Positions 21,822 through 23,733 of a stretch of DNA of 64,000 nt are shown piece by piece. Position 1 is the first letter of the stretch; each line of letters starts with the position of its first letter. The stretch comes from Chlorobiota bacterium (GTDB taxonomy: Bacteria > Bacteroidota > Bacteroidia > Bacteroidales > JAADGE01). The position numbers were made by a program, and so were the translations under genes. The DNA lies in the NCBI GenBank assembly GCA_013152535.1, contig JAADGE010000046.1, forward strand, positions 1-64,000, in the 5' to 3' direction. A model generated the notes under the pieces. That model was given only the letters and a program-made list of their open reading frames with translations, searched no databases and had not been told where the DNA came from.

Positions 21822-22877
21822 ATGAAAATATTAATAACAGGGACTGCGGGTTTTATCGGATTTCATACGGCAAAAAAGTTTATTGCTGCAGGATTTGATG
21901 TAACAGGACTTGACAGCATAAACGATTATTACGATAAAAATCTTAAATATGCACGTTTAGCCGAAACAGGTATTGAAAAGAGTGAAATAACTTATGCAAA
22001 ACTTGTTCAAAGTAAGAAACATAAAAACTATCATTTTATAAAACTTCAAATTGAAGATAAAGATGAAATTTTGAAACTTTTTGAAACAGAGAAATTTGAT
22101 TATGTATGTCATTTGGCGGCACAAGCCGGTGTTCGATACAGCATCGAAAATCCTTATGTTTATTTTCACAGCAATATCAACGGGTTCTTAAATATTATTG
22201 AAGCAAGTAAAAGAAATAATATTAGTCATCTTGTATATGCTAGTAGCTCAAGCGTTTACGGGCTTAACGAGGAAATGCCTTTTTCAACTTCTCATAATGT
22301 TGATCATCCGATAAGTTTGTATGCTGCCACCAAAAAGTCAGATGAATTAATTGCTCACGCATATAGCCATTTATTTCAAATTCCGACTACCGGACTTCGA
22401 TTTTTTACGGTTTACGGTCCTTGGGGAAGACCCGATATGGCATTATTTATTTTCACAAAAGCAATCCTCGCAAACGAACTGATTAATGTTTACAACAACG
22501 GTAATATGATGCGAGATTTTACTTATGTTGATGATATTGCGGAAGGTATTTTCAGGGTTGTTAAGAAACCTGCAAAAGCCGATCCGCATTGGTCGGGACA
22601 AAGTCCTGATCCGGCAAGTTCATCGGCACCGTATAAAATATATAACATAGGAAACGGAAATCCTGTTCAATTATTGGATTATATTGAAGCCGCAGAAAAA
22701 GCACTCGGCAAAACAGCAAAAAAGAATTATTTACCGATGCAGCCCGGCGATGTTAAAAAAACTTATGCTGACGTCAATTCTTTAGTGAAAGACTTTGATT
22801 ATAAGCCTGATACTTCAATAGAAGAAGGTGTGGCAAAATTTGTTGAGTGGTATAAGATGTATTACAATATTAATTGA
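21822..22877 (+). CDS. NAD-dependent epimerase/dehydratase, UDP-glucuronate 4-epimerase-like
   Basis: ILITGTAGFIGFHTAKKFIAAGFDVTGLDSINDYYDKNLKYARL; HLAAQAGVRYSIENPYVYFHSNINGFLNIIEA; YAATKKSDELIAHAYSHLF; TGLRFFTVYGPWGRPDMALF. Confidence 0.9.
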   Translation: MKILITGTAGFIGFHTAKKFIAAGFDVTGLDSINDYYDKNLKYARLAETGIEKSEITYAKLVQSKKHKNYHFIKLQIEDKDEILKLFETEKFDYVCHLAAQAGVRYSIENPYVYFHSNINGFLNIIEASKRNNISHLVYASSSSVYGLNEEMPFSTSHNVDHPISLYAATKKSDELIAHAYSHLFQIPTTGLRFFTVYGPWGRPDMALFIFTKAILANELINVYNNGNMMRDFTYVDDIAEGIFRVVKKPAKADPHWSGQSPDPASSSAPYKIYNIGNGNPVQLLDYIEAAEKALGKTAKKNYLPMQPGDVKKTYADVNSLVKDFDYKPDTSIEEGVAKFVEWYKMYYNIN

Positions 22878-22954
22878 CGCTCAAATGTTCTGCGGACGAT
22901 TTGAGGTTACATATTTAAAAGACCTTTGTTCGTCCGAAGGACAGCAAAGTGTCA
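22875..22954 (+). repeat. Structured direct repeat, copy 1 (80 bp), upstream of RAYT-like gene
   Basis: TGACGCTCAAATG...ATTTGAG...AGTGTCA; shares termini and CTCAAAT/ATTTGAG stem with the copy at 23670-23733. Confidence 0.8.
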
Positions 22955-22969
22955 TCAATAATAAAAAGG

Positions 22970-23635
22970 ATGATACCCATAGAATACGGAAAATATTTTC
23001 ATATTTATAACAAAGGTATTAACAGTATGAAAATATTTCTTGATAAAAATGATTATGAACATTTTCTCAATTTGCTTTCAATATATCTTGAGCCAATTTC
23101 GGAAATATATGCTTATGCAATAATGGGCAATCATTTTCATTTAGCCTTACGAATAAAAGATAAAAATGAAATAGGATATTTGCATCCGAAAAATGCAGAT
23201 ACAGAAGAGCTTGACGTAAAATGGAAAACTTTTTTTCCTGCAGATGAGGACGACAGATTAAAAAACGGATTTATTAAGAAACCCGTTCCCGAAAAAATGT
23301 TACAGCATTTATTTAATGCTTATGCTAAAGGATTTAATAAAAAGTATCACAGAACCGGAGCTTTATTCGAACATCCTTTCAGACGTATCTGTGTTGAGAA
23401 TGAAAATTATTTAAAACGTTTGATTGTGTATATTCATACTAATCCTGTAAAACATGGATTTTGCGAACATCCCGTTGAATATCCATGGACCTCGTATTTA
23501 AGTTTGCTAAGCATAAAACCGACAAAATTATCAAGGGAAACTGTTATCGGATGGTTTGATGACAAGATGAAATTTAAATTATTACATGATAAAACAGGTG
23601 ATTTTAAGGATGTTGAAAATATATTTTTGGAATAA
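22970..23635 (+). CDS. REP-associated tyrosine transposase (RAYT) / IS200-like HUH transposase
   Basis: YGKYFHIYNKGINSMKIF; YAYAIMGNHFHLALRIK (HUH motif); AYAKGFNKKYHRTGALFEHPFRRICVENENYLKRLIVYIHTNPVKHGF. ORF track start at 22949 is a GTG; ATG at 22970 preferred. Confidence 0.88.
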   Translation: MIPIEYGKYFHIYNKGINSMKIFLDKNDYEHFLNLLSIYLEPISEIYAYAIMGNHFHLALRIKDKNEIGYLHPKNADTEELDVKWKTFFPADEDDRLKNGFIKKPVPEKMLQHLFNAYAKGFNKKYHRTGALFEHPFRRICVENENYLKRLIVYIHTNPVKHGFCEHPVEYPWTSYLSLLSIKPTKLSRETVIGWFDDKMKFKLLHDKTGDFKDVENIFLE

Positions 23636-23669
23636 TTGTAAATTTAGTAAACTGAATTTAAAATGAAAA

Positions 23670-23733
23670 TGACGCTCAAATGTCTTTCAGACGATTTGAG
23701 GTCGAGAAAAAGACGAAAGACAGAAAAGTGTCA
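23670..23733 (+). repeat. Structured direct repeat, copy 2 (64 bp), downstream of RAYT-like gene
   Basis: TGACGCTCAAATGTCTTTCAGACGATTTGAGGTCGAG...GACGAAAGACAGAAAAGTGTCA; same orientation as copy 1. Confidence 0.8.

Follow-up and report, generated by a model that had tools for sequence, protein, structure and literature searches.

A single-copy RAYT gene between two REPINs in a Bacteroidota sugar-transfer gene cluster: a likely REPtron with a variable hairpin stem

The locus described here is very likely a REPtron, in which a Bacteroidota-type RAYT gene, present in one copy, is enclosed by its cognate REPINs; the RAYT protein would move REPINs and, at least occasionally, the unit as a whole. 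Most of what is known about REP/RAYT systems so far comes from Proteobacteria, where the hairpins are of the GTAG type. The evidence for the present assignment comes from the protein, from the covariation of the hairpins, from the dispersal of the repeats among related genomes and from the existence of empty sites, and the steps of cleavage and transfer are proposed from these comparisons.

The window (the whole stretch of 64 kb that was analysed) contains a run of sugar-transfer genes, in which the unit is preceded by a NAD-epimerase gene and followed by a group-1 glycosyltransferase gene. By direct reading, the two elements around the RAYT gene share the start TGACGCTCAAATG, a CTCAAAT...ATTTGAG core and the end AGTGTCA, and in both of them the termini GACGCT and AGTGTC are complementary with one G-T wobble. 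An earlier note on this DNA had described the pair in this way, and its description, positions included (Table 1), is correct in every detail. Apart from these two elements there is no further copy of the exact TGACGCTCAAATG in the 64-kb window, and an exact search of the window genome with the stem pattern gave two matches, both at the RAYT locus. The RAYT frame is more likely to start at the ATG at 22970 than at the in-frame GTG at 22949, which falls within REPIN 1. The upstream epimerase owes its TGA stop codon to the TGACG start of the same REPIN. RNA-energy folding yielded z-scores of -6.4 and -3.1 for the two elements. In a whole-genome search with the covariance model, the training set of which included some of the locus copies, the locus hairpins were recovered with E-values of 4e-10 to 3e-8. 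Searches of Rfam with E up to 10 gave chance-level matches only, so that the repeats correspond to no Rfam family; PADLOC found nothing, and PHROGs gave a single weak match of unknown function (E 0.089).

Table 1. Features of the RAYT locus and strong REPs elsewhere in the window genome
Feature	Position	Strand	Description and basis
REPIN 1	22875..22954	+	80 bp, two inverted REPs; sequence, ORFs, model matches, empty sites
REP A1	22876..22908	+	GACG-CTCAAAT-GTTC-TGC-GGAC-G-ATTTGAG-GTT; 42.5 bits, E 3e-8
REP B1	22921..22953	-	GACA-CTTTGCT-GTCC-TTC-GGAC-G-AACAAAG-GTC; 43.0 bits, E 2e-8
RAYT (TnpA-REP) gene	22970..23635	+	221 aa; HUH motif NHFH; catalytic-type tyrosine in YIHTNP
REPIN 2	23670..23733	+	64 bp, oriented like REPIN 1; sequence, model match
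REP A2	23671..23703	+	GACG-CTCAAAT-GTCT-TTC-AGAC-G-ATTTGAG-GTC; 48.8 bits, E 4e-10
REP B2	23704..23732	-	decayed; foot GACA and 5' stem kept, 3' half gone
Strong REPs outside the locus	C5:43992, C15:29318, C58:27164, C2:28575	n/a	covariance model; stems differ from the locus

On the basis of its motifs and its modelled structure, the gene product is a Bacteroidota RAYT/TnpA-REP with an IS200-like HUH/Y1 fold. In an alignment of 23 homologs, N58, H59, H61 and Y158 are invariant (the numbering of Tyr158 is based on window:22958-23632), and the HUH residues and the tyrosine of YIHxNP as a whole are invariant or nearly so. When a profile of these 23 homologs was compared with the PDB, the sole match was the TnpA-REP 4er8 (E 4e-7). 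The AlphaFold model (pLDDT 90) leads to the same protein: with E 1.6e-7, the best Foldseek match is 4er8, a REP associated tyrosine transposase in complex with a REP hairpin, and the next ones are the TnpA proteins of ISDra2 and IS608. The NCBIfam model REP_Tyr_transpos scores 45.9 bits, which is under its curated cut-off of 80, an annotation threshold and no biological definition, and a Pfam library search with the protein gave no match. The dN/dS ratio relative to the sister genome G003 is 0.16, similar to that of the neighbouring genes, which indicates that the RAYT has been maintained under purifying selection since the lineages of G003 and of the window genome (G000) split. The synonymous divergence of the RAYT from G003 amounts to 0.23 and is higher for its neighbours (0.57 and 0.41); later exchange or codon effects are possible reasons. 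The gene occurs as a single copy per genome and the other RAYT homologs in the window genome are at most 47% identical to it, which argues against a proliferating insertion sequence. Different hairpins flank L064 and L067, which are further RAYT-like genes in the window genome, and each of the two has its own repeat type (CCCTGTCAGGG...; GACGCAAAGC.../ATGCAAAGC...). Some homologous RAYT genes have REP hairpins in frame between the HUH and tyrosine motifs (L043 1720-1803, L048 1855-1944, L050 1191-1279 and L262 1708-1799).

Each of the flanking elements is a REPIN, a head-to-head pair of inverted REP hairpins, rather than a single REP; the flanks of homologous genes were the source for recognising these inverted pairs. 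The earlier note had presented the elements as same-orientation repeats of unusual design. Their common orientation stands, while the design is better described as that of two REPINs, in a layout that recurs around homologous RAYTs. A forward-reverse REPIN 5' and another 3' of the RAYT are present in L035, L037, L039 and, from Gracilimonas amylolytica, L287, and the window has the same layout save for the decayed final REP. This REP, B2, has no covariance-model match in the window, and its counterpart in the sister species is intact (compared with L035 1392-1424). The inner stem of A2 differs from that of A1 by a compensatory change, GTCT/AGAC versus GTTC/GGAC. A rule according to which partner REPs carry complementary stems (S and S') was rejected, as it holds for L036, L037, L039 and L048 and fails for L046 and L069.

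Written from the foot, the REPs follow a common blueprint, NAC-[G]-seven-base stem-GTCY-loop-RGAC-[G]-stem'-GTN'. This blueprint is two-fold symmetric: the variable stem is bordered at each end by an unpaired G, one per strand. The stem comprises 7+4 bp, the loop mostly 3-4 nt and the tail GTC or GTT; there is no GTAG foot but a foot NACG, the NAC of which pairs with the tail. In a set of 25 REPs, 96.8% of the cells are paired and the cells with a double change number 86, versus 24 in shuffles; a slide of the partners by one base abolishes the signal. As the copies were collected by means of their seven-base stem, the seven stem pairs are biased to pairing, while neither the inner four pairs nor the outermost one of this set entered the selection. 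A less strict scan, in which two or more of the three inner pairs had to be present and the outermost pair was not imposed, comprises 166 copies with 48 different stem sequences. Here, 102 copies have G-C as their outermost pair, 53 have A-T and 1 has C-G, and the second (inner) unpaired base is a G in 142. This covariation of the outermost pair indicates that foot and tail do pair, unlike in classical GTAG REPs. Over many loci and families, the hairpin is kept by compensatory change.

With E-values up to 1, the covariance model finds 10 matches in the window genome, three of which are at the locus and four, all strong, elsewhere, the rest being weak. A fixed stem pattern had suggested that there is no family at all (17 matches versus 12-15 in reversed controls), a view overturned by the covariance model. 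Nevertheless, neither pattern nor covariance-model searches detected dispersed copies of the locus stem type elsewhere in the window genome, and the activity of the system may thus be low or lost there. The suggestion of the earlier note that the pair could have founded a genome-wide family is not borne out in this genome, since its four strong REPs off the locus all have other stems. Such families do exist in relatives: the model has at least 97 matches in G018 and at least 121 in G067, lower bounds from 150 scored candidates, and many of the G067 copies are identical across unrelated contigs. Across 99 genomes, RAYT and REPs are found together in 30, RAYT only in 12, REPs only in 12 and neither in 45 (Fisher p=5e-7, kinship ignored). 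In the clade of closest RAYTs, all 13 of 13 genomes have REPs, and strong matches are also located beside the RAYTs of Gracilimonas amylolytica and Membranihabitans maritimus. Motifs, fold, flanking repeats and this co-occurrence all agree with the RAYT identity and the REP association that had been proposed for the gene.

The surroundings of the dispersed copies vary. Most REPINs of G067 (L180-L198) lie in the middle of a more extensive palindrome, cgggataaatttccgca...tgcggaaatttatcccg, and may be hitch-hiking inside this larger repeat; a few lie in unrelated DNA. In G018, REPs are present in frame in several different genes (L201 358-390, L209 442-474, L210 426-458 and L213 448-480), at the same spot in a region that resembles a C-terminal sorting domain, for example as NLQASARPCSV before SIIDITGK, and with different stems. 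Another REP is in frame within an open frame of 978 aa and occupies identical positions of it in the window genome (L135 1501-1533, G000:C5:43992-44024) and in G003 (L098 1501-1533).

Comparison of gene order within the genus reveals how the locus was probably formed. The epimerase and glycosyltransferase genes overlap or lie a few bases apart in six congeners (G001, G002, G005, G007, G008 and G012), and at this junction both the RAYT and the repeats are absent from all six. Only in the window genome and in its closest relative G003 is the junction occupied. The unit at this position is a recent insertion. G001 has a second, different RAYT unit between two subunit genes of an oxidoreductase, where it directly follows the stop codon of the first; the corresponding junction measures 10 bp in G011, while in G009 it has about 190 bp and no RAYT. 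Moreover, in the RAYT tree the window protein groups with those of G036 and G067, from other families, and of G018, from another genus of the same family as the window genome, before it joins that of the congener G001. Together, the empty sites, the second unit and the tree suggest that REP-RAYT-REP segments arrived horizontally in one piece, and as the second unit likewise has its empty sites, such units seem to enter tight operons whole. The RAYT itself may have driven this arrival. The outer flanks have diverged too far for the exact target joints to be read. The earlier note had considered a mobile unit and proposed to look for empty sites in related clusters; the six empty junctions and the independent second unit with empty sites of its own speak for its mobility.

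On this basis, it is possible to propose a mechanism. When the DNA becomes single-stranded, for example as lagging-strand template, each REP would fold. The RAYT would then recognise what is constant in the hairpin (the foot NAC, both unpaired Gs and, as upper stem, GTCY...RGAC), and would tolerate any seven-base stem. TnpA-REP biochemistry has demonstrated that the protein reads stem irregularities, loops and the foot (PMC8266576), and accordingly the features most likely to be recognised at the present locus are the NAC foot and the pair of unpaired Gs. At the REPIN borders, Tyr158 would cleave the strand and join it again, by which REPINs could be relocated around the genome. At least occasionally, the whole REPIN-RAYT-REPIN segment would be carried along, because two hairpins of the same orientation flank the gene, like the left and right ends of IS200/IS605 elements. 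In this manner the unit could have landed between the epimerase and glycosyltransferase genes, which abut or nearly so in relatives, with the repeat giving the epimerase its stop codon. A more general form of the proposal, put forward only tentatively, is that the REP-RAYT-REP units of this clade transpose whole, between co-operonic genes, and that any seven-base stem is read by means of the two symmetric unpaired Gs. If true, REP families would be free to change their stem sequence and yet remain mobile.

Other explanations for the locus have to be weighed. Direct-orientation hairpin ends on both sides, an HUH/Y1 fold akin to the IS608 and ISDra2 TnpA proteins, two different units each with clean empty sites and a RAYT tree that does not follow the genus would all be expected of a classical insertion sequence of the IS200/IS605 type, moving mainly as a whole element. 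Such an element is nevertheless improbable, given the single copy per genome, a nearest solved relative that is a RAYT and no IS transposase, and the tens to hundreds of hairpins that occur without the gene. That the hairpins serve the operon as RNA elements, such as terminators, attenuators or mRNA stabilisers, next to which the RAYT lies incidentally, is highly improbable: no Rfam family corresponds to them, the repeats and the RAYT are jointly missing from the same operon in six relatives, the same hairpin stands beside RAYTs in unrelated neighbourhoods, and it is found even in frame within genes, although the position between co-directional genes and the stable RNA folding would suit such a role.

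It could also be imagined that the RAYT has been domesticated and serves the host in a housekeeping function on single-strand DNA, and that the REPINs are its immobile fossils. The low dN/dS of 0.16 between the sister species is compatible with this, as are the absence of own-type dispersal from the window genome and the decay of one REP half. This explanation is unlikely, as the presence of the gene within the genus is patchy, the insertion at the epimerase/glycosyltransferase site is recent, and the large families of near-identical REPINs in relatives imply recent activity of homologs. The REPtron, with a RAYT that acts on its own REPINs, therefore remains the preferred explanation.

The closest known group is TnpA-REP subclass 2.6, equivalent to Bertels group 5, which is described from Bacteroidetes with genes flanked by 'atypical secondary structures' that lack GT[AG]G and have copies elsewhere in the genome, and with proteins in which additional residues separate the HUH motif from the Tyr motif (PMC6006769). 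The present locus shares these characteristics: a Bacteroidota protein with extra HUH-Tyr residues, flanking structures that lack GT[AG]G, and further copies, which in the window genome have other stems. NHFH and YIHTNP in the window protein differ slightly from the motifs given for the subclass, NH[LIV]H and YIH[QN]NP (PMC6006769), several homologs having YIHNNP or YIHQNP. Very probably the locus belongs to this subclass, and its kind is then already known. The main text of that study gives no consensus for the structures, of which it notes just the atypical character (PMC6006769), whereas the blueprint and the REPIN layout are explicit here. Relative to that main text, the additions are the REP blueprint, its covariance, the freely changing stem and the empty sites of whole units. 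An explicit blueprint with a covariance model makes the repeats of Bacteroidota searchable, the defined empty sites make the movement of REPtrons as units directly testable, and a free stem in a fixed frame predicts which bases are read by the protein.

As in the REPtron of E. coli (4er8; REP y/z, BIMEs/REPINs), a single-copy RAYT of the same fold is accompanied by adjacent inverted REPs with an irregular stem. Unlike there, the GTAG foot is lacking, foot and tail pair, unpaired Gs replace the AA-GC bulge, and there are empty sites for the whole unit. The GACG/CGTC ends suggested a classification as CGTC-tagged REPs, which have stems of 8-9 bp beginning with AT, loops of 4-5 nt and a tail CCA, and none of which lies beside a transposase gene (PMC3733652). 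The CGTC/GACG tag and the head-to-head pairs are indeed common to both, but this candidate was rejected since strand, stem, loop and tail all mismatch (PMC3733652); in the present repeats, GACG precedes the hairpin on its 5' side, the identity of the tag base follows that of its partner, and a RAYT gene lies alongside. With the IS200/IS605 elements IS608 and ISDra2, finally, the locus has in common the Y1 HUH fold, hairpins of the same orientation on both sides and empty sites, while it differs from them in that its ends are REPINs, which are also dispersed alone, and in that the unit has no multiple whole copies.
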